A stretch of 64,000 nucleotides of DNA from Senegalimassilia faecalis. Its GTDB lineage: Bacteria; Actinomycetota; Coriobacteriia; Coriobacteriales; Eggerthellaceae. A program made the position numbers and the translations under genes. The stretch is from assembly GCF_004135645.1 (NCBI RefSeq), contig NZ_SDPW01000001.1, forward strand, positions 744,001 through 808,000. Direction: 5' to 3'. Shown here piece by piece: positions 2,821-36,871 of the stretch (positions are counted from its first letter, which is position 1; every line of letters begins with the position of its first letter). The notes beneath the pieces are model-generated. The model was not told the DNA's origin. It searched no databases and worked only from the letters and a program-made list of their open reading frames with translations.

Positions 2821-4080
2821 TTACGCCTCCGTTCCTTTCAGCGGGATGCTTGCCCGCACGCAAAATCCACCCTGCGGCGCATCGCCGGCCGCAAACCAGC
2901 CACCCAGCACGCGCACGCGCTCGGCCATGCCCGCCACGCCGTGTCCCGCGCCATCGGCCGCCTGCGGAAGCGGTTCGTCCTGCCCGGGGCAGGCCGCCGG
3001 GCGGCCGCAGCCCACGCCGTCGTCGGCCACCAGCAGCGTTGCCGCACCGTCTTCCACGGCGAAACGCAGCGTCGCATGGTGCGCCTGCGCATGCTTCACC
3101 GCGTTCGTGCACGCCTCGCGCGCCACCGTGAACAGCGCCATGTCGATGTGCGCCGGCACCTGCGCGCGGTCGTAGCCTTCCATGTCAAGCGTCACATCAA
3201 GGCCCGCACCGCGCAGATAGGACTCCAGCTCGCCCACCTGGTTCGTGCCCGCCGCCGGCACGGTTTCGGCCACGTCGTCGCCATGACGCAGCACGCCGAT
3301 CATGGAGCGGATGTCGTCAAGCGCGCTTTTCGCCGTGGTGCGCGCCGTGGACACGGCCTCCTTCGCCATCTGGGGGTTGCGGTCAAGCAGGCGCTCGGCC
3401 GCCGCCAGCTGAATGCTGACGGCCGACAGCGAGTGCGCCGTGATGTCGTGCACCTCGCGCGCGATACGCACGCGCTCCTCCTCCACGCGCCGCGCCGCCT
3501 CTTCCTCGCGCGTGCGCTCGGCCTCGGCCGCGCGCTGCTCCACCTCGTGCACGTAGGCCGCATGCGTGCGGTACGCGTAGCCCGCCAGCACGGCCGCCAC
3601 CATCAGCGCGATGTTCTGGAAACGCGTGAAGAACACCATGCTTGCCGCCTGCATGGGCGCGTCGCCGAACAGCAGCGACAACACGGCCAGCACGCCGCAC
3701 ACCACGCCCGGCACCGTGCCACACTCCACCGCCACCGTGTACAACGCCACCAGCGGGCCCACCACCGTCATGGAGAAGCCCGAGAACTTCAGCTGCAGGC
3801 CCAAGAATATGACCAGGCAGGCGGCGAACACGGGCAGCGGGAAGCGGCGGCGCAGCACCAGCGGCACCACCGTCATGGCCAGGCCCACGAACACCTGCAG
3901 GTCGGGCACCACGTTCACCATGCCCAGGTATTGGCGCAGCGCCAGGTCGGGGATGATGATTGACGACGCCGTCAGCATCAGCTGCACGCAGCCGAAGGCG
4001 AACGCCAAAAGCATCACCGCCGCGTCGACGGCCCAGTCGCGCGCGGTCATTTCACGTTGTGTCATCAGCAAGTTTTCCAT
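2821..4080 (-). CDS. DesK/NarX-type sensor histidine kinase
   Basis: Membrane sensor of about 419 residues. Four to six hydrophobic segments occupy roughly residues 18-170, followed by a charged coiled coil (EQRAAEAERTREEEAARRVE). A HisKA_3 dimerisation domain has the phospho-histidine H211 in REVHDITAHSLSA, and a C-terminal HATPase domain has the glycine box DDGVGCG. Start choice is uncertain: a GTG at 4098 and an ATG at 4062 are alternatives; 4080 has GGGG just upstream. The stimulus is unknown. Adjacent on the same strand is a Tat-exported flavoprotein, a plausible but unproven target. Confidence 0.9.
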   Translation of the reverse strand: MENLLMTQREMTARDWAVDAAVMLLAFAFGCVQLMLTASSIIIPDLALRQYLGMVNVVPDLQVFVGLAMTVVPLVLRRRFPLPVFAACLVIFLGLQLKFSGFSMTVVGPLVALYTVAVECGTVPGVVCGVLAVLSLLFGDAPMQAASMVFFTRFQNIALMVAAVLAGYAYRTHAAYVHEVEQRAAEAERTREEEAARRVEEERVRIAREVHDITAHSLSAVSIQLAAAERLLDRNPQMAKEAVSTARTTAKSALDDIRSMIGVLRHGDDVAETVPAAGTNQVGELESYLRGAGLDVTLDMEGYDRAQVPAHIDMALFTVAREACTNAVKHAQAHHATLRFAVEDGAATLLVADDGVGCGRPAACPGQDEPLPQAADGAGHGVAGMAERVRVLGGWFAAGDAPQGGFCVRASIPLKGTEA

Positions 4081-25746: not shown

Positions 25747-26314
25747 GGCGGGCAGCGCGGCCGCAGCCCACGCATCCCATGCGCCGCTCGCCCTGGAACG
25801 CCTTCTTGTAGTCCTGCCAATCGGGAATCTTGAAGCCGGCCAGCGCGATGCTGTTGCACACGTTCTCAGCGTCGTCGATGGGCCACTTCTCGTCGTCGGT
25901 CTCGCCGTCGCAGTACAGCCGGCCCGACTCGATGGTCTTGTAGATGCTGGTGGCGTCTGCCCAGCTGGGGTTGCACTTCGGGTTCGTGCGCTTCATGGGG
26001 TACTTCAGGCGGTCCGGATGGTACGCGGCTTGCAGCGATGCCTGGCCCTTCGAGCAGTGGTTGCCCATGGACTAGAAGGCGGCCTCGTCGCCTTCGCTGC
26101 GGATGACCTTGCCGTCTTGCACGTACACCCACACGCCGCATTCCATCTTGCCGCAGCCGCGGCACGTGGAACGAATGCGCTTGACCTCGCCGGTCGACGT
26201 GGAGCTGGCGCTGGATTCGGCCAGCGCGGTGCCGGTGCCTGCGATTCCGACCGCAGCAGCGGTAGCGGCAGTCATCTTCGCGAACGTGCGACGCGTCATC
26301 GTGAGCTTGCCCAT
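25747..26314 (-). pseudogene. decayed Tat-exported molybdopterin oxidoreductase (DMSO-reductase family)
   Basis: The N-terminus MTRRTFAKMTAATAAAVGIA is a Tat signal, followed by CRGCGKMECGVWVYVQDGK, the family's 4Fe-4S motif. Reading then stops at TAG (26072) where relatives appear to have Gln, and resumes in frame as SMGNHCSKGQASLQAAYHPD. After KRTNPKCNPSWADAT the sequence jumps to a C-terminal-looking segment (YCDGETDDEKWPIDDAENVC ... DWQDYKKAFQGERRMG). Hundreds of residues are missing. The 5' end still has the strong ribosome binding site AAAGGAGGATGC. A nonsense mutation plus a large deletion make it non-functional. Confidence 0.85.
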
Positions 26315-26627: not shown

Positions 26628-26819
26628 GCAGCGGCCGAGAATGCGCGCGAAACCGAGATCATGACGATGTTCGCCAAGGGTCGCAACCTGGCCTACATCC
26701 AAGAGCAGCTATGCCTGTCAAAAAGCACAGTCAGCACCCACCGCCAGCACATCTACCAAAAGCTCGGCGTGCACTCAAGCCAAGAGATGATCGACCTGAT
26801 CCAAGAGGAGAAGGCGTAA
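26628..26819 (+). pseudogene. C-terminal remnant of a LuxR-type regulator
   Basis: About 60 codons read as the end of a LuxR helix-turn-helix: ETEIMTMFAKGRNLAYIQEQ, then SKSTVSTHRQHIYQKLGVHS, ending QEEKA. The frame is cut by a stop just upstream and there is no start with a ribosome binding site. In Eggerthellaceae LuxR regulators often sit beside reductase genes, so this is probably the lost regulator of the neighbouring dead reductase. Confidence 0.75.
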
Positions 26820-27016: not shown

Positions 27017-28237
27017 TTACTTCGCTTTAATCAGTAGTTTTACCTCATTCGCAATTTTTTTCGGGTTGCGAACGATTCCGCGCGCATATCGCACCAGCTG
27101 CAACGCCGGGCGCAATGGCGCGATTCTGGAAGCGCGCGGGAACAAGTACCCCAGCGCCTCATCGTTGGTTAAGCGCTCGCGCAGGTAACCGCGCTTTGCG
27201 GCGCCCAAATCGCCTTCGTGCTTCGCCTTCTGCTTATCAAGCCGGTTCTCCACCATTCGATTGCTGTTGCCATACGTACCGCTCCTCAGTAAATAGCGAA
27301 GGAGATCCGCTTGCTCGAACGGCAGCGGATCAACGGCGCAAGCTCCGCCGAAGCCCACGTCAGCCAGCGCACGCACACGAGCCTCGAAATCGAGCAGACC
27401 AGTCTCTCGCAACTCGGAGAACACATAGTCCCAATCCATGTCCATACCTTTAACGTCAAGAAGCACACGCGTATCGACCACGAAGCGGATACCGCAACCT
27501 GCGGCATCGAAGTGCTTGAACGCGTGCGCCATAATATAGACGTATTCATCCTCATCAGAGAAGCGGAACAGATGCGGGTCGTGCTCATCTCGAATAGCGC
27601 GTTTCCATGGGTTTTCGTAGTAAGCGGCCATGGGGCTTGAGGACGACACGAGGCAACGATGCGGTTCGAAATTGAAGATCGGCTGCTTTTCGAACGACTC
27701 ATGATTGCCCACGCGCAACGACTTCGTGGTGTAACCCAAGTCATGCATCACGCGCTCGATAACACGGATGCCACGCTCCACCGTCGCTTCGCGCTCCGCA
27801 TGCGTTGCGCCGCAAATGCGGAAGCCTTCGTCCTCGATAGGCTCAACAAACCCGTACAGAAAGTCGTTGTCAGCCATAGATCGCATTTCAGGACGCGGGT
27901 AATAATCCGCCAGAAGCGCGCCTTTCATTGGGAGGCACGATAGGCCCTCGAGCGCCAATGCAGCAAATACCAGCTCTCGTTCCGCATCGAAGCGAACTCG
28001 ACGAAACAGCGTTATCTGGGCTTCGTTTTCCCATTGCCTTCTCAGATCAGCGGGAATATCGTCACGGGTTTCCGCGCCAAACCACGCCATACCCTCAACG
28101 CTGTTATGTTCAGCAAGCGCATGCACGCACCGCCAGGTCACGCCGACGGGTATTGGCTGCGCTGGCACGTCATGCAGACCGCAATCGATGAGATGCACCA
28201 GATATCGTCCCGCCCGATCGAGCATTTCGTTTTCCAC
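27017..28237 (-). CDS. nucleotidyltransferase-like protein (lasso-cluster NT type)
   Basis: A 406-residue protein of the uncharacterised nucleotidyltransferase family found in some lasso and other peptide clusters. The catalytic-looking segment SCLPMKGALLADYYPRPEMR followed by SMADNDFLY keeps the lysine-glycine and a D-x-D pair of the superfamily. HLFRFSDEDEYVYIMAHAFK follows. It probably transfers a nucleotide to, or modifies, a peptide or carrier; target unknown. The start is GTG with GAAAGGATG upstream. It is the last gene of a minus-strand run of six. Confidence 0.75.
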   Translation of the reverse strand: MENEMLDRAGRYLVHLIDCGLHDVPAQPIPVGVTWRCVHALAEHNSVEGMAWFGAETRDDIPADLRRQWENEAQITLFRRVRFDAERELVFAALALEGLSCLPMKGALLADYYPRPEMRSMADNDFLYGFVEPIEDEGFRICGATHAEREATVERGIRVIERVMHDLGYTTKSLRVGNHESFEKQPIFNFEPHRCLVSSSSPMAAYYENPWKRAIRDEHDPHLFRFSDEDEYVYIMAHAFKHFDAAGCGIRFVVDTRVLLDVKGMDMDWDYVFSELRETGLLDFEARVRALADVGFGGACAVDPLPFEQADLLRYLLRSGTYGNSNRMVENRLDKQKAKHEGDLGAAKRGYLRERLTNDEALGYLFPRASRIAPLRPALQLVRYARGIVRNPKKIANEVKLLIKAK

Positions 28238-28284
28238 AATGCATCCTTTCTCATATACCCGCCGAAATAGAAAACGGGGAAACG

Positions 28285-28326
28285 CTCAGAGCAAGTGCCC
28301 TGGCTCCAAAGCCTCCTGAGCGTCGT
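28285..28326 (-). other. hairpin between ABC and nucleotidyltransferase genes
   Basis: ACGCTCAG and CTGAGCGT pair across 26 nt within the 139-nt gap. It could be a partial terminator or mRNA-processing site separating the last gene from the operon. Confidence 0.35.
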
Positions 28327-28376
28327 ATCGCCATCTTGCCAATTCACTATCGCAAGCTTCAGTAGCCTGCCTCGCG

Positions 28377-30245
28377 CTATCGTTCGACGCAGGCCCCCTT
28401 GCGCATTTCCACTACGCGATCGCATGCGGCAAGCGTCGCCTCCCGATGCGTCACCAGCACGGCAGCCCTGCCGGGCAGTGCGCGCAGGTTGGCCAGCATC
28501 CTGCGCTCGGTTTCGGCATCGAGCGCCGAGGTCGCTTCATCAAGCAGCAGCACCGGCGCCTGGCTGTATACGGCGCGCGCAACGGCCAGCCGCTGCATCT
28601 GCCCCTCAGATAACCCCGTTCCGCGCTGCCCTAAAGGCGTGTCCAATCCCTGCGGCAACGCCCTAATGAAGTCCCATGCACATGCCGCCTTGCAAGCAGC
28701 AACAACGCGTTGCAAATCAAGGTCGTTACCCTGTTCGGCAAAAGCGACAGTATCGCAAATCGTACCTGCCATCAGGCGATTTCCTTGCGGAACAAACGCA
28801 AAAAGCCCCTTTGCCTCGCAAAGCGGGACACGTATGCCGCCAGCATCCTGCGCCCACGCCTCGCCCGATTGCGGCATATATGCGCCCAGCAGCAACTTCG
28901 TCAACGTTGACTTGCCAACACCGCTCGGACCAGCCAGGCCCACGAATTCGCCCGCATTCAGCGCAAAATCGCAGCCATGCAGCACATCATCGCCGCAATC
29001 ATACGCAAACGACGCTCCACGCAACTCCAACTTTGAGAACGATGCAGATTCGAAAACGACATCATCGCCGGCAAAGACCTCGGCACTCATGCTTGCTTTC
29101 GTCGCGACATTAACTTGCATTTTGACATCAAGGCCGGACGAGCCGCTGCCTCTCGACCGCGCACCAGCTCCGTCGCCTTCTGAAACATTGATTGCACTTG
29201 CTTGCAGAACAGCACCAACGCTATCCCGCAAAGTCGTTGTACTTTGCTTGCCATCTATCTCCCGATTGAGCCCCATAAGGCGCTCAGAACTTGCAAGCAT
29301 GGACGAGTATTTTGAGAACGATCCACCTAAGCTGGAAAACGGTGACTGAATCTGACCTATAAGCTGAACTATCGCCATAAGCGTTCCGTAGGTGCAGGTT
29401 CCGTTAAGGATGCCAAAGCCGCACCAACCGAAGCCCAGCACATACCCCATCTGCACCGCCAGCACAAGCGCCGTGCTGCAGCCGTTGGAAACATCCGCCT
29501 TACGCAAACGCGCACATCGGTGAGCGGCCATGGCGCGCTCGGCGCGCTCGCATACCTTACGTTCGCAGCAAAACGCGTGCACAACCAACAAACTGTCCAA
29601 GCATTCCTGCAGGTAACTGCGCATATTTCCTTCAGCTTCCTGCATGCCCGCATGCAGTCGCTTCAGTAGCGGGCGCACAGCCAATGAAGCTGATGCGGCA
29701 ATGCAGCCGCCAACCACAAAAACAAGCGTCAAGCTTGGCGCCAGGGCAAACAAGGCTGCTACAACACCAACCAAGCGAACCGTCATGGAAACCATTGTCG
29801 GAATGAGGGTGCAGGCGCCATCGGCAACAACGGAAACGTCCGAGGTCATGCACGTCATCAGCTCTCCGGAATGCCGATGCTGCACGCGTTCGTATGGCTG
29901 TGCGAGCACGTCGGCAAAGGCGCGGCAACGCAGCTGATTCTCGAAACGCGACAGGGTTCGCTCAAGAAGAGCCCGATTGGCGGCGATACAAGCGACCTGA
30001 ACGCACAGAATCCCGGCGAACACTCCACACCACAGCCAGAAACCATTGAAGCTTCCTGCAACCGCCTCATCAATGGTCTTCTGCATCGCCAGCGCAAAGC
30101 CGACAGCGTTTAATGCCATCAGACTCTGTAAACCACACAGCGCCACAATGCGAGTAAGCCCCGCTCGGCCAATGACGCCAGCAATCCAGCGGCGCGCAGG
30201 CATCCCGCCACCGAACACATGTTGCAGCTTCTGCCTTATATTCAT
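28377..30245 (-). CDS. ABC exporter, fused permease and ATPase (peptide type)
   Basis: A 622-residue half-transporter. A six-span membrane domain occupies about residues 25-315, and the ATPase domain has Walker A GPSGVGKST (439-447), signature LSEGQMQR, Walker B VLLLDEATSALD and H-loop VTHREAT. There is no N-terminal C39 peptidase. An unusual Ser/Gly/Ala-rich insertion (about 332-400) separates the domains. The ATG overlaps the stop of the peptidase gene (ATGA), so translation is coupled. In context it should export the mature peptide product of this cluster. Confidence 0.88.
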   Translation of the reverse strand: MNIRQKLQHVFGGGMPARRWIAGVIGRAGLTRIVALCGLQSLMALNAVGFALAMQKTIDEAVAGSFNGFWLWCGVFAGILCVQVACIAANRALLERTLSRFENQLRCRAFADVLAQPYERVQHRHSGELMTCMTSDVSVVADGACTLIPTMVSMTVRLVGVVAALFALAPSLTLVFVVGGCIAASASLAVRPLLKRLHAGMQEAEGNMRSYLQECLDSLLVVHAFCCERKVCERAERAMAAHRCARLRKADVSNGCSTALVLAVQMGYVLGFGWCGFGILNGTCTYGTLMAIVQLIGQIQSPFSSLGGSFSKYSSMLASSERLMGLNREIDGKQSTTTLRDSVGAVLQASAINVSEGDGAGARSRGSGSSGLDVKMQVNVATKASMSAEVFAGDDVVFESASFSKLELRGASFAYDCGDDVLHGCDFALNAGEFVGLAGPSGVGKSTLTKLLLGAYMPQSGEAWAQDAGGIRVPLCEAKGLFAFVPQGNRLMAGTICDTVAFAEQGNDLDLQRVVAACKAACAWDFIRALPQGLDTPLGQRGTGLSEGQMQRLAVARAVYSQAPVLLLDEATSALDAETERRMLANLRALPGRAAVLVTHREATLAACDRVVEMRKGACVER

Positions 30246-30829
30246 TGGGACTTGTCTTTCCCGGGTTCTTCGCATACACCAGATGCGTCGACGGCAGCAC
30301 GCTGTCCGGACTCACGCTTGCCGCAGCTCCCTGCAACGCTAGCGGCGTCTGACCCAATCGCGCGATGACGCGCCTGCCTTTTGCTGCCCTTCAAGCACCG
30401 TTTAGCGCGCCCGGCAAAAGCACGTGCCCGCATAGCATAACGGCGTAGCGGATAAATCGCATACCACGCACGCACATACGCTCGATAAGGCAAACCGTCC
30501 ATATCTATCTTCTTCTCACCACGATAAAGCCCCGTCAGCACGCCGATAACGCGCTCATCTGGAATATCGGGTTCCTTGTTTAAGCAGTTATCGCCTAACA
30601 TGGTGTAGCTGTCAGAGTGAACCTCGACGCATCGATGCAACACATAGTCGTCACCGCGGCGATACAGAGGAACCTCGAACCTGCGAAGCCGACGGCCATG
30701 CAGCGGCTCGACGACGATGGTATCGCGCCGGTTGCGCAGCATCGGACACATGCTCACCCCTACCGTAGTGCTCACGTACACACCTTGCTGAGCAAGCACC
30801 TCTTCTATATGTTTGCCGGACCGAGACAC
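30242..30829 (-). CDS. S24/S26 signal-peptidase-like protein
   Basis: A 195-residue protein of the short S26 (LepB/LexA-fold) branch. The serine motif is TTVGVSMCPMLRNRRD (S26 of the product), then RRGDDYVLHRC and YTMLGDN, the conserved boxes of the fold. A classical catalytic lysine is not evident, as seen in other peptide-cluster members. The C-terminal 65 residues are basic and poorly conserved. There is no clear membrane span. The GTG start is 3 nt after the pqqD-like stop. Likely role: leader removal or a non-catalytic partner. Confidence 0.78.
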   Translation of the reverse strand: MSRSGKHIEEVLAQQGVYVSTTVGVSMCPMLRNRRDTIVVEPLHGRRLRRFEVPLYRRGDDYVLHRCVEVHSDSYTMLGDNCLNKEPDIPDERVIGVLTGLYRGEKKIDMDGLPYRAYVRAWYAIYPLRRYAMRARAFAGRAKRCLKGSKRQARHRAIGSDAASVAGSCGKRESGQRAAVDASGVCEEPGKDKSQ

Positions 30830-30832
30830 CGC

Positions 30833-31096
30833 CTATGCCAAAAATCCCTCTTCAGCAACCTGCTTCACAAACGCAGCAACATCCGTCGCGGCTTTCTCGC
30901 CGTCTACTTCATACGCAGACACAAGGTCAGCCGCAATCTCCTCGTTCGATTTGCCCGCCGCAAGTCCTTCCCAGATTACGCGACCCGTCTCGTTCAGCTT
31001 GATCATGCCGTGAAAGCCCTTGCTAGCTTCGCCGGTGGCGATAACGACCACCTGACCGGCAACTTCACGCAGCACAAAACCCTCTTTGATACGCAT
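30833..31096 (-). CDS. PqqD-family RiPP recognition element
   Basis: An 87-residue winged-helix protein: RIKEGFVLREVAGQVVVIAT, then IKLNETGRVIWEGLAAGKSN and EEIAADLVSAYEV. This is the PqqD fold used to bind leader peptides of ribosomally made modified peptides; stand-alone copies are called B1 in lasso clusters. GGGAAGAGG precedes the ATG. It lies between the kinase-like and peptidase-like genes. Confidence 0.9.
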   Translation of the reverse strand: MRIKEGFVLREVAGQVVVIATGEASKGFHGMIKLNETGRVIWEGLAAGKSNEEIAADLVSAYEVDGEKAATDVAAFVKQVAEEGFLA

Positions 31097-31226
31097 AACG
31101 CCTCTTCCCGATAAACCGGAGACAGCAGCAGCCGCACATCTGCCTCCCAATGATTAGCAACAAATAAGGTGCTTACTCACCTCGAAAGTCGATTGTCGAG
31201 AGAAGCAAGCACTGGCGTTCCGATAG

Positions 31227-32024
31227 CTAGATTGCCGGCCGATACGGCAATCCCGTAAGCGCTTCGAAACTTGTACGAACGGCGTCTTCGGACATATCGC
31301 AAGCCAGCGAAAACAGAGGCACGCGCGAGACCAGCGCATCAAGCAAGTCAAGCGTGTTCCCCGCCGCACAAGCGTCTCCAGGCAGGTAAACCTGACGTAC
31401 CACCTTGCCCAAACACGCAGCTGGTTCTATACGGCAAATAGACGAAGCCCCCACGTCGCTGCGCGAGATCAGCACGATACCCGCCAGGGGAGCCGACGCA
31501 TTCTCCTGCCAGCCTTCTTTACCTGCCCAAGGCGTACCGTACGCAATGGGTGACTCATCGGCGGCCGCAGGAATGCGCACGAACGGCTTGTCGCCGTTCA
31601 CGACTCGCACGCCCGCACCCAGGTATTGCCGCCATAGCATAATATGTGTCGATTTGCCCGTTCCGCTTGGCGCCATGAACAGATACGCTTTGCCCGCGTA
31701 TTGGATAACCGCCCCATGCACCAACATGCGATTGTGTTGCGGCAGCTCATTCGCGATGCTGCGCAAAACCGCCAACGTTTCCAAATACGAATCCGCCCAA
31801 TGGCGACCTTCAGTCGCAATCGCTCGCTCGGCATCAATGGCTTCTTGGGACATCAATACAACCAAGTCCGCAGCCACAGCATCGTCGCACTTTTCCAAGT
31901 AGTCTTTGCACAGATGCCGAACATCCTGATGAAGAGCCAGTATGTCTACCGTCAAGCCGGCAAGACGAACCCGAAAACGCGTTTTCTCGAGCCCGTTGCC
32001 ACCATTATCCGCGTGCTTCTTCAT
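31227..32024 (-). CDS. HPr-kinase-like peptide/protein kinase
   Basis: A 265-residue protein resembling the C-terminal domain of HPr(Ser) kinase. The P-loop FMAPSGTGKSTHIMLW lies around residues 118-130, followed by VVNGDKPFVRI and YGTPWAGKEGW, matching the HprK-like kinases of lasso clusters (for example the paeninodin kinase), which phosphorylate the precursor. It begins 3 nt after the stop of the Ser/Gly-rich gene. The 130-nt gap to the pqqD-like gene holds a weak hairpin. Serine phosphorylation of a cluster peptide is a reasonable inference. Confidence 0.85.
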   Translation of the reverse strand: MKKHADNGGNGLEKTRFRVRLAGLTVDILALHQDVRHLCKDYLEKCDDAVAADLVVLMSQEAIDAERAIATEGRHWADSYLETLAVLRSIANELPQHNRMLVHGAVIQYAGKAYLFMAPSGTGKSTHIMLWRQYLGAGVRVVNGDKPFVRIPAAADESPIAYGTPWAGKEGWQENASAPLAGIVLISRSDVGASSICRIEPAACLGKVVRQVYLPGDACAAGNTLDLLDALVSRVPLFSLACDMSEDAVRTSFEALTGLPYRPAI

Positions 32025-32027
32025 AAC

Positions 32028-32567
32028 TTAGTAGTAACCCGTCCAAACGCCACCTTCGCTCGAAGGCTTGTCAGAAGAGCCTACTCCGCCATTACCCGAA
32101 TTGCTGGAATTCGAGTTGTCGGACTCGCCATTACCACCAGAAGCATTACCGTCACCGGAGCCTTCCGCCGCCGGCTGATCGTTGCGCGAATCGGAGGCAT
32201 CGCCATTACCGCCGGCAATGCTGCCAAAGTCCACCACATTGTCAGCCGACCCATCGTCCGCACCGCCACCGGATCCGATACCTGCTGCCGCAGAGCCCGA
32301 TCCACCAGATCGACTCTGGCCAACCGGCGACTGCGAGTTCGTCCCCTGCGTCGTCTTCTGGCCGCTCGACTGCGCATCGGATTTATCGTTCGCAGGTTGC
32401 TCGGTAGTCGCACCGACTTGCTTAGCATCTTCCGACTTCGCCGAATCATCGCTTTTACCGCAGGTGACTAAAGCGATAGTAGTCGCGATTAGCAAGAGCG
32501 CGACGAATATCGCGATTGCGGCAATAGTTATTTTCTTCTTATCTATTGGAGCACATTTTGCGTACAT
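32028..32567 (-). CDS. membrane-anchored Ser/Gly/Asp-rich protein, first gene of the peptide-maturation operon
   Basis: A 179-residue protein with a short cytoplasmic N-terminus (MYAKCAPIDKKK), one hydrophobic helix (about 13-35, ending LVTCG) and about 145 residues of Ser/Gly/Asn/Asp/Gln-rich low-complexity sequence. It ends GGVWTGYY. AGGTGA lies before the ATG; longer upstream frames are possible. It is 3 nt before the kinase gene. It could be a substrate, a surface display scaffold or a sensor; I do not recognise a family. Confidence 0.7.
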   Translation of the reverse strand: MYAKCAPIDKKKITIAAIAIFVALLLIATTIALVTCGKSDDSAKSEDAKQVGATTEQPANDKSDAQSSGQKTTQGTNSQSPVGQSRSGGSGSAAAGIGSGGGADDGSADNVVDFGSIAGGNGDASDSRNDQPAAEGSGDGNASGGNGESDNSNSSNSGNGGVGSSDKPSSEGGVWTGYY

Positions 32568-32773: not shown

Positions 32774-32803
32774 AGCCCTCGTGATTCAATAATCACGAGG
32801 GCT
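32774..32803 (-). terminator. intrinsic terminator after the 39-residue peptide gene
   Basis: AGCCCTCGTGATT and AATCACGAGGGCT form a perfect 13-bp stem. On the minus strand a T-rich tract (TTTTGGTTTT) follows. It separates the adhesin-peptide transcript from the kinase-PqqD operon. Confidence 0.9.
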
Positions 32804-32807
32804 ATGA

Positions 32808-32927
32808 CTATTGCTGTAAGGCAGGGAACCCAGGATTTACTACGGTATCGCCAGACGAATCCGTAATCACATCCTCTCCCAGAAGCACCACTTGCATCGT
32901 CGGTTCTTTATACTGCTCTTTTTCCAT
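32808..32927 (-). CDS. 39-residue peptide, candidate RiPP precursor
   Basis: Translation gives MEKEQYKEPTMQVV, then LLGEDVITDSSG, then a tail ending FPALQQ. AAAGGGAT lies 8 nt before the ATG and a strong terminator follows the stop. The N-terminal half has Y6-x-x-P9-x-M11, the motif that PqqD-like B1 proteins recognise in lasso leaders, plus a Thr (T22) where lasso leaders have their penultimate Thr. The tail lacks Asp/Glu at positions suited to a lasso ring. It begins 13 nt after the adhesin stop. Confidence 0.75.
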   Translation of the reverse strand: MEKEQYKEPTMQVVLLGEDVITDSSGDTVVNPGFPALQQ

Positions 32928-32940
32928 CGCTTATCCCTTT

Positions 32941-35900
32941 CTATTCGCAAGCTTGAATGACTTTGTTTGCATAATCTATTTCATTGGCCCCAGCCAGAGA
33001 ATAATCCCTGATGAGCTGGGCAACTTCATAGACGGATCGCTGTTGATAGCCGACTTCGCTTGCGGTTACTTCAGTTCCGTCAGCCGTCTTGTATTCCACA
33101 AAAGCTTTTTCACTGATAAGCGCCTTGTAACTTGCCTTCGGAACCGGAGCGAAAACGATATTGGAAGTCACCGTACCGTCAAGAAGATTCAGCTGGCGAT
33201 CCTTCGCAATGGTTCTGTTGACGCTGCCGCCAGGGATATACCAATCCCATCCGTTCTGAACAAAGCTGCACTGTTCCGGTATAGACAAGTCGTAGCCAAA
33301 ACGAAGCGAGGTTGACGTAATGGCATCGCCCAAATCCATACGCAGCGACCCGCCCTTGAAATGAATCAAATCGCTAACCTTGACAAACTTGGGGTAAGCT
33401 TGTCCATTCGCTTCTTCCGCTGCGTAGGCTTCGGTGAAGCTAGAATCCTTGTACCAGCCAGCAAAGGCGTAATCGCTGGACATGTTGAAGTCAGCGTTGT
33501 TGATAGCCATTCTGCCGCCATTAGCATTAGTGTAGTCTGCAAGGCTATAGGACTGGTTGACATCGCTTGCAAGCACAGCGTAATCGGAGAACTTCGCAGT
33601 CTCGAACGTGACTGCACCACCCTGCTCGTCAACGTTGGTAGGATCTATAAGGTCAACCTCGTCGTTGTGGACGCGTGCAACCGTGACCTTCTTGCCAGCG
33701 ATAACTTGGGGATCAACCTCAATCGTTACCTCGATGGGATCCGCAGTCTCCTTGACGGGGACCGTAGCGGCAGCAGTCACATTGTTGTCGGAGTCCTTAA
33801 CCTCCGTCACCATATCAACGGAAAGCTCAAACGGCACAACAGTCGCATTCTTGGCGGTATCGGCAATTTGCTGGTTCGCTACAACATCCTGATTAGCCTT
33901 AACAACAAGTTGGACGTTAACCGACGCTCCGCTCTTTGTTGCCTCCTCAGCAACCTTGTTGACTTCATCTGCCTTGCCCATAGCACTTGCGTCAACGGTA
34001 ACGCCGCCGATATTGACCTCACTTGCGCTAGTTTCGACCGTAACATACTTAATCGACTCAGCAGCCTTTGCCGCCGACTCAGCAACCTTCTGCTGCTCGG
34101 CTTGCTCGACAACTACGCCAGAGGTGGAAACGGAGCCAGAAGCACTGCCACCCTCAGGTTTGACTTCTACGCCCTTTTCAGCGATGCCATAAGTGCCGTC
34201 GCTGTTCTTAACGCAAGCAAAGCCCTTGGCGCAGCAATCAGAGGGGACTTCAGCAGAGAACGTGCCACCGGAAACGGCAGCATTGCCACGATTTTCCGCA
34301 TTGTAATAATTGCGAATCATCGTTTTGCCGCCTGCAAAACTTCCGCCAGAGACCTTGAGGTCATCTGTGTCCTGCCCGTAGGAAGATGTGAAGAGAACGG
34401 AAGGAGCCGTGCCCTCGGCAGTGAAGCTGCCCCCGGAGATAGTCGCCTTGCTCCAGTTCATAATCACATACTGGCTCGTATTGGTGAACGTACCGCCAGT
34501 GATTTCAAGCGTAGTGTTCGACCCGTTCTTCACCGCGTTGACGCCGCCAGAGAAGATGCCGCCTTTAATAACCATCTTTGCATTGGTGTCATCGGCGTTA
34601 CAGAGATTGCTAGAATAGCCTCCCGCATTGCGGACAGTCGCCCCGCCCTCAATAGTCATGGTTCCTTTATTCTGAACCGTATACCAGCTATTGCCTCCAT
34701 TGCCATAGAGCTCGAGCGCGCCTTTCTCCTGACTACGCTCGAACAACCCGCCCTTGAGCGTAGCCGTACCATTGTTGACCAACGCACCCTTAGCATGTGT
34801 GACGTTGTCAACCGTGCCGGTCTTCGCGGTGCTGGAGTCTGCGACAATCAGCGTGCCATTATTAGTGATGGTGTGGTCCCTGACGTTGGTGAGCTTGAAG
34901 CCATTAAGGTCGAGCGTAAGGTTCTTGCCCTCGGCGACCGTCACGTCCTCGGCGGCATTCGCCAGCAACTTGACGGTGTCGCCGTCCTTTGCGACATCGA
35001 TGGCGGCTTGAACGGATGCATAGTTGGCGTTAGCCACTTGAGCCACAGCTTTTGAAACGGTATATGTTGCATCAGTGTCTTCGCCAGACTTCATGACGCA
35101 ATAGCCATCAGCCATGAAGTTCGTGCCTTCGCCTTCAGCCGTATTGTTCGAGGGATCGAAACCCTTAAACGCACCGCCGGCAACCCTAATGTCTGCTTCG
35201 CCAGCCTTGCAATTCTCATCTTTGCAGTTTAGCGTCCATGCAGGCGTAGCGGACTCAAACGTGCCACCCTTAACAACGATGTTGCCTTGATAAGCATAAA
35301 TCATATCGAACTGCTGGCAATCGGTGTTCGTAATCTGCTGCTTATAAGTTCCACCTTCAAGAGTGACCTTGGCGGCAGTCGACTCCGTCTGCACGGCCAT
35401 AGCATATTTGCTGTTCTCAACAGCGGTAACCACGCCATAGCCCTTGATGGTTAAATCGCCAACCAGCTTAACATCAAATACACCGTGGGCACCATTGCCC
35501 GTGATGTTGTGACCATTCAGGTCAATGGTGACTTTATCTTTGATTTCGTAATAGTTGCTAGGCTCATTGATATCCTGCAGCAGCTTGACAACATCGTTAG
35601 TGCCCGCAACGGCATTAATGGCACTAGAAAGCGTGGGATAATTGACCCCGTTGACCTCTGCCGGAGGATTCGTCTTGGAAAGCCCATACATACCGTCACC
35701 AGACGTCACTACCGAGTAGCCATCTGCCAAGGTTGCTCCATTGGCGGAAGGGTCGGTAGAAAACTTGCCAGCTGAAACGGTAATCTTAGAATCATCCGTT
35801 TTTGCAGGGTAATTCGCAGCAGCATCAAAGACCAGCGCTGCGCAGGGGAGCTGATTTTTATTGTCGCCAACCCAACCCTTAATGCTACCCGTGCAGTTAA

Positions 35901-36871
35901 AGGTACCACCCTTAACTGTTACATTACCGGCACGCGCAACGATACCGGCACCGTTCGTGATGTTGAACGTACCGCCAGAGACGGTAATCTTGTCTTTCCA
36001 CGGAGCATAGATACCACAGGCGATATAGCCATCGGTAACGATGGCACCGTTGAAGATGCCGCCTTTAATCGTGATTTCGTTGGATTCACCATCACGATCG
36101 GTGCCGTTACCGGCGATTACCGCATTATCGGTAGCGTTAAACGTACCATTTTTAATCTGGATGTAAGATCCGGTTGCTTTGCCCGTGATTACGGCGCCTT
36201 CGCGTCCCTCGTAGGTGCCCGAATTAATGAAGAGTTTGGAATCATCTCCACCAACTGCAACTGCAACGTTTTCCGAAGAAGAAACTTTGCCAGGCTCTTT
36301 GCTTGTCGATCCGCCCGAAAGATACAAAGTACCATTATTCAGTATTGCGGTACCTTTAGACGCAATAGTATGATTCATCAAATTAATGGTGATGCTTTTA
36401 CCCTTAGGAATAACGACCGATTCGGTCAGCGTTACATCCATCGCCAACATCACAGTATTGCCATTTGCTGCCGCGTTAACGGCATCTTGCAGCGTTTTGT
36501 ATCCGTCGCCCTTGCCGCGAATTGTAGCAACAACGGGCTCCTCAATCTCGGTTGCGCCATCTTCTGCTGCAAGCTTCTGAGCCGCAGGCGTCTCAGCTTC
36601 CAGCAGGGATTCGTCGGCATTCTGAGCTGCCGACTCTTGCCCGTTAGCAACTACCTTGCTGGAACCTTCATCTACCGAGTTCGAATCAGCTAGATTCTCA
36701 GAACCCCCCCCCCAGCGTGTTCTCGGCTTGAGGCTGTTCGGCAGCTGCGCCCGATTCAGCACTCGCGTCGCCGTCGCCGGCCCAAGCCGAAACTGGCGCA
36801 TTAAGCGACACGACCATAGTAGCCGCTACCAGCACGGAGAGCGCTTTGTTGCCCAATGATGCCCTAGCCAT
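32941..36871 (-). CDS. large beta-helix surface protein, frameshifted at a poly-G tract
   Basis: Secreted protein of about 1,310 codons once the frame is corrected. Signal peptide [20 protein letters not shown] ending near APVSAWAG. Then many right-handed beta-helix-like repeats with GGTF, GGIF and GGSF strands (about residues 90-900), and an InlB-like repeat ([14 protein letters not shown]) in the C-terminal part. No LPXTG or membrane anchor is present at the end (VIQACE). Ten G at 36704-36713 put the signal peptide out of frame with the body; nine or twelve would restore it. AAGGAAGG precedes the start. A phase-variable adhesin in the OFF state is the best reading. Confidence 0.85.
36704..36713 (-). 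repeat. homopolymeric G10 tract, probable phase-variation switch
   Basis: Ten consecutive C on the plus strand (G on the coding strand) lie about 53 codons into the adhesin gene, directly after the signal peptide and a short linker. The tract changes the reading frame between signal peptide and passenger. Confidence 0.8.

Follow-up and report, generated by a model that had tools for sequence, protein, structure and literature searches.

Organization of the Locus

The window analysed here is a 64,000-nucleotide stretch of the Senegalimassilia faecalis genome (744-808 kb), and the genes in question lie on its minus strand. Six genes had been claimed between 27017 and 32567 by an earlier sequence-only reading, and all six are present. 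The first encodes a Ser/Gly-rich protein (SG; 32028..32567) with an N-terminal transmembrane (TM) anchor, a low-complexity stalk and a C-terminal tail of WTGYY. This is followed by an HprK-like kinase of the LppK/PadeK type (31227..32024), a PqqD-like RiPP recognition element (RRE) of the LppB type (30833..31096), a predicted S26B/SipW-like leader peptidase of the LppS type (30242..30829), an MsbA-like ABC exporter of the LppD type (28377..30245) and an NTP_transf_5 nucleotidyltransferase-like protein of the LppN/PsmN type (27017..28237). The unit as originally drawn is nonetheless incomplete, as a precursor peptide ORF (32808..32927) and a gene for a large adhesin-like protein (32941..36871) just upstream had been missed. 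The precursor ORF lies between the adhesin-like and SG genes, 13 nt after the adhesin stop. A strong intrinsic-terminator-like hairpin of 13 pairs (32774..32803, minus strand) stands behind the adhesin and the precursor.

The SG stop codon is 3 nt from the ATG of the kinase, the PqqD stop is 3 nt from the GTG of the S26-like gene, and the S26-like and ABC genes share an ATGA overlap. These junctions, from which an operon had been read, hold. The coupling within the cassette is uneven, however, because a gap of 139 nt separates the ABC and NTP transferase genes and one of about 130 nt the kinase and PqqD genes.

The NTP transferase is recognized by the Pfam family NTP_transf_5 (E 2.8e-39) and carries a D-x-D motif in SMADNDF, while the RRE gene matches PqqD (E 2e-15). 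In the exporter, the Pfam search found only the ABC membrane and ATPase domains and no peptidase domain. Neither the kinase nor the S26-like protein matched a Pfam family. The structural model of the kinase shows a PEPCK/HPr-kinase fold (pLDDT 92) with HprK/P and PEPCK as its structural matches, and H103, K124 and D145 are kept in 19/19 aligned sequences. In the S26-like protein, the motifs G-x-S-M-x-P, L-H-R and G-D-N are kept in nearly all relatives (12 sequences aligned), and the best matches among solved structures, with weak E-values, include signal peptidase I and SEC11C. Judged by these motifs, with Ser26 and His65, it is a putative peptidase of the Ser/His (SipW/Sec11) type, which supports the earlier proposal that an S26-like protein takes the place of the leader protease.

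A second, diverged copy of the locus is found in the same genome (L008; G000:C1:1725000-1744999). This copy contains its own adhesin, precursor, SG protein ending in WTGYY, kinase, RRE, S26-like protein and ABC exporter, with the NTP transferase gene on the opposite strand. As the gene set also co-occurs in many other genomes, it represents more than a chance grouping. The GC content of the 24-38 kb region of the window is 52-60%, lower than most of the window and compatible with acquisition. In another genome of the same genus (G153), the S26-like, adhesin C-terminal domain (CTD) and leader profiles found no match. Downstream of the cassette there are short remnants resembling a molybdopterin-oxidoreductase N-terminus and a LuxR-type C-terminus (26072-26314 and 26661-26819), with similar long ORFs in L011; they are possibly a scar at the edge of an island.

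The Precursor Peptide and Its Leader

The precursor is a 39-aa peptide (MEKEQYKEPTMQVVLLGEDVITDSSGDTVVNPGFPALQQ) with a YxxP leader homologous to the LppA motif. Cleavage is predicted after DVI and phosphorylation at Ser24, which is 18 residues from the Tyr; the C-terminus reads PALQQ. The leader pattern YxxP...DVIxxS is found again next to related cassettes, and equivalent short ORFs adjoin those of L008, L012 (Gordonibacter pamelaeae), L015, L016, L024, L025, L026, L029, L032, L058 and L066. A leader HMM trained leave-one-out, with the window sequence excluded, recovered the window ORF with an E-value of 1.1e-9, the next of 1424 open frames scoring 4.1.

All 29 precursors examined, linked or unlinked to a cassette, contain Y/F-x-x-P/L followed 18-20 residues on by a Ser behind a D/E/N-V/I element; in five rows a script had picked an earlier Ser, and the assignment was corrected by eye. 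Three precursors have YxxL in place of YxxP. No curated Pfam or NCBIfam family matched the precursors over cut-off, and the leader profile found no match among PDB chains. Several precursors reside on contigs other than that of the cassette, adjoining large secreted-looking proteins. In one small genome (G299; L090 and L091), Cys-rich YxxP precursors are repeated, with a large secreted-looking protein after each.

Comparison with Linear Polyphosphorylated Peptides

The earlier proposal of a RiPP-like pathway was right in outline, but the pathway can no longer be termed uncharacterised, as the same gene set was published in May 2026 by Popov et al., who described and partly reconstituted clusters for linear polyphosphorylated peptides (LPPs) (PMC13381572). 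The cluster of Paenibacillus alginolyticus is ordered lppA-K-B-S-D-N, and the LPP core set comprises SpI, a discrete RRE, HprK, an NTP transferase and an MsbA-like exporter (PMC13381572). The precursor consensus is YxxPxVLxHQxIxFETxxS, with cleavage after T-1; LppB binds the YxxP of the leader, LppK polyphosphorylates Ser3 of the core, and the SipW-like LppS (S29/H68/D93) cleaves after T-1 together with LppB (PMC13381572). Deletion of lppN brought no visible change, and in the authors' host LppN showed no activity (PMC13381572). According to the authors, LPPs are restricted to Bacillota, and clusters are reported at capsule loci (PMC13381572).

The window cassette has all five enzyme families in common with these clusters, which likewise need no cyclase. 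Both precursors have a YxxP leader, a Tyr-to-Ser distance of 18 residues and a Ser at +3 of the core, although the +3 position in the window presumes cleavage after DVI by alignment with the point between FET and xxS. Ser26 and His65 of the S26-like protein are 39 residues apart, as are S29 and H68 of LppS, and both are invariant. D91 fits D93 of LppS within one residue, with Glu or another residue there in several relatives. N35, Y62, D72 and F76 of the window RRE align with N33, Y60, D70 and F74, the residues by which LppB holds the leader at its Tyr and Pro.

There are also differences. The leader of the window and its relatives ends in D-V-I instead of F-E-T and departs from the consensus at its L, H and Q positions. 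The RRE is not closest to LppB: the RRE profile gave LppB 31.5 bits, against 39.6 for TfuB1 and 38.9 for TbiB1, both lasso RREs, and 32.0 for PbaB1, so that by profile score it is a candidate and not an established member of the monophyletic LPP clade. The hosts here are Actinomycetota rather than Bacillota, the cassette adjoins adhesin and SG genes rather than capsule loci, and some precursors are unlinked to a cassette. In view of the DVI end, the RRE and the hosts, the window locus is called an LPP-like variant and not a proven member.

Relationship to Lasso and Radical-SAM Clusters

Much of the cassette would also suit a lasso peptide. Paeninodin/pseudomycoidin-type lasso clusters likewise contain an HprK-like kinase, a discrete RRE, an NTP transferase, an ABC exporter and a related leader, although the window motif has Tyr where the lasso leader has Trp. 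The window locus differs further in lacking both the macrolactam cyclase and the transglutaminase-like B2 protease. These could in principle be encoded elsewhere, and the genome of the window does encode two Asn-synthase proteins of full length (at 387 kb and 1.34 Mb). However, both lie 355 kb or more away, both begin with MCG as AsnB does, and neither has a B2 alongside. A PF13471 (B2) search of the whole genome found no match, and matches to this family in other genomes are weak fragments. The absence of cyclase and B2 noted earlier holds. Nor does a cyclase gene stand just outside the cluster in relatives: no Asn-synthase-like cyclase was found in about 50 relative loci, and the one such match, in L109, was rejected as a lasso cyclase as it is GlmS. 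The LPP cluster described in 2026, whose protease is of this kind, gives a linear peptide (PMC13381572). A lasso pathway completed by distant genes is very improbable.

A radical SAM HMM matches seven relative loci (L010, L064, L065, L069, L071, L072 and L116) and not the window. These RiPP clusters, from Coriobacteriia and Lachnospiraceae, have PqqD, HprK-like and/or S26-like genes, and several have related YxxP precursors. Unlike the window, they encode a radical SAM enzyme, in some cases with a SPASM region, and their cores often contain Cys. They are probably a separate RiPP class that shares the export module. That some precursors cluster with radical-SAM enzymes instead counts against the LPP reading.

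Distribution among Genomes

Among 348 Coriobacteriia genomes, the S26-like profile matches 18, the leader profile seven and the adhesin CTD profile five. Every leader-positive genome (7/7) is S26-positive, as are 4/5 of those with the CTD. Of 200 Lachnospiraceae genomes, 34 are S26-positive and include 9/9 leader genomes. With the genomes used for profile training removed (in Lachnospiraceae n=199, 33 S26-positive, 8/8 leader genomes among them), the probability of chance association is about 1e-7 in Coriobacteriia and about 3e-7 in Lachnospiraceae, with kinship among genomes ignored. In leader-positive genomes, the leader and S26-like genes are often on different contigs. The co-occurrence in other genomes that the sequence-only reading proposed as a check is thus found. 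Actinomycetota carriers consist of the window family, with Gordonibacter and Eggerthellaceae relatives, and loci of Olsenella and Bifidobacterium.

Two other arrangements occur in Clostridia. In L018-L023 (Oscillospiraceae/Clostridia), an HprK-like kinase gene directly follows that of a predicted secreted polysaccharide deacetylase, with no PqqD or S26-like gene; the deacetylase was tested against Pfam in L018 and assigned by similar sequence in the others. In some Clostridia cassettes, the S26-like gene adjoins that of a ~320-aa protein with no Pfam match, an N-terminal TM segment and a coiled-coil-like end (L014 4223-5176; L015 11454-12422; L024 9620-10579).

The Adhesin and Its Poly-G Tract

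The body of the adhesin-like surface protein (32941..36801, minus strand) has no Pfam domain over cut-off. Its signal-peptide segment (36698..36871), with an RBS-like AAGGAAGG, begins with the ATG at 36871 and does not share the reading frame of the body, which is shifted. The break is at a homopolymer of 10 G on the minus strand (36704..36713), and the signal-peptide frame stops just after it. This tract is the only G/C run of eight or more in the window. The adhesin of the second copy also breaks, at an 8-G run (L008 2953-2960) in the same place behind the signal peptide; the related adhesin of L058 lacks a run of this kind and stays in one frame. In the Gordonibacter locus L012, a G10 run lies at 4060-4069, upstream of the adhesin start. 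The breaks fit slipped-strand switching, and so possible phase variation, but may also be homopolymer sequencing errors.

The broken frame, along with the gene remnants downstream of the cassette, could be taken as a sign that the locus is what is left of a RiPP cluster that has decayed and no longer functions. Against this, the cassette genes are all intact with their catalytic residues kept, a diverged second copy exists in the same genome, and a break at poly-G in both copies is the pattern of switching and not of decay. Degeneration is accordingly highly unlikely.

The conserved CTD of the adhesin (32944..33558, minus strand) is also present in secreted proteins encoded next to other cassette copies, and recurs beside cassettes or precursors in L008, L012, L016, L029, L032, L058, L066, L107 and L110. 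It matches no Pfam family over cut-off. An AF2 model consists mostly of beta strands (pLDDT 85); no convincing structural relative emerged from Foldseek, whose beta-sandwich matches had a TM-score below 0.4 on the query.

The Stalk Protein and the Question of Substrate

The SG protein ends in WTGYY in eight loci (the window, L008, L011, L012, L016, L058, L074 and L110), and related Trp tails are seen in L025, L029, L032, L066, L107 and L117. A stop-anchored WTGYY DNA pattern was found in 4/278 Coriobacteriia genomes, in three of them at these genes (G000 twice, G241 and G255). The fourth match (G065) may be due to chance, since the reversed control pattern matches two genomes. The leader peptide and SG tails are alike in L110 and L117 (GWSGYY/GWTGYY; DEDGWTVIIVKP/DEDGWTTIIVKP) and similar, as a partial match, in L032. 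A WTGYY end common to the precursor and SG of the window itself was considered and rejected, as the peptide ends PALQQ.

These tails raise the question of whether the cassette mainly modifies surface proteins: the proper target of the kinase and NTP transferase would then be SG or the adhesin, and the short peptide would serve as an accessory or regulatory signal. The recurrence of SG and adhesin genes beside the cassette, the conserved tail, and its likeness to the leader peptide in L110 and L117 would agree with this. Yet SG and the adhesin do not carry the YxxP leader bound by the RRE, in several cassettes the peptide is present but a CTD protein is not, and tails of the WGRLF/WGPVM type contain no Thr. 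A TM-anchored SG should also exit the cytoplasm by a different route. Finally, the G255 assembly holds an adhesin and an SG protein ending in WTGYY with no S26-like or HprK-like gene anywhere, so that the adhesin/SG pair appears separable from the cassette. Surface proteins as the main substrate are consequently unlikely.

Proposed Pathway and Its Implications

The locus is most probably of the LPP type of RiPP, in an actinomycetote host and combined with a surface-adhesin unit. Behind this stand the gene content, the co-occurrence of leader motif and protease, the conserved catalytic and binding residues, the lack of lasso enzymes at the locus and the linkage to adhesin and SG genes. From homology to the partly reconstituted lpp cluster, we infer that binding, phosphorylation, cleavage and export take place in this pathway. 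The RRE would bind the 39-aa precursor by its YxxP leader and present it, and the HprK-like kinase would phosphorylate Ser24, the Ser that is invariant in DVIxxS. The SipW-like protease would then cut off the leader after DVI, and the ABC protein would export the linear phosphopeptide. The NTP-transferase-like protein may decorate the phosphate, for which a sugar or a nucleotide is the likely addition, since in pseudomycoidin PsmN attaches hexoses to phospho-Ser (PMC9266682). This step and a cell-surface function with the adhesin and SG stalk are the least certain parts of the scheme.

New here are the actinomycetote hosts, the different leader end and the recurring link with large secreted proteins, which share an unnamed CTD, and with a TM-anchored stalk protein. 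The peptide, the SG tail and the adhesin may be functionally tied. In one tentative and rather doubtful form of this idea, a single ligand of a surface protein, for instance of the CTD of the possibly phase-variable adhesin, would exist both as the LPP-type peptide and as the WTGYY-type tail of SG. The SG protein would then tether the adhesin, and the exported peptide would compete with or modify that tether. If so, control of adhesin display would be the first function for LPPs.

LPPs have no known biological role and have been said to be confined to Bacillota, whereas the same machinery is present here in gut-type Actinomycetota, with Gordonibacter, Olsenella and Bifidobacterium among the relatives. 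The YxxP...DVIxxS leader signature can be used to find precursors anywhere in a genome. The window locus hints at a cell-surface job for these peptides, a function made directly testable by the position of the precursors next to large secreted proteins and an anchor protein that carries the tail.
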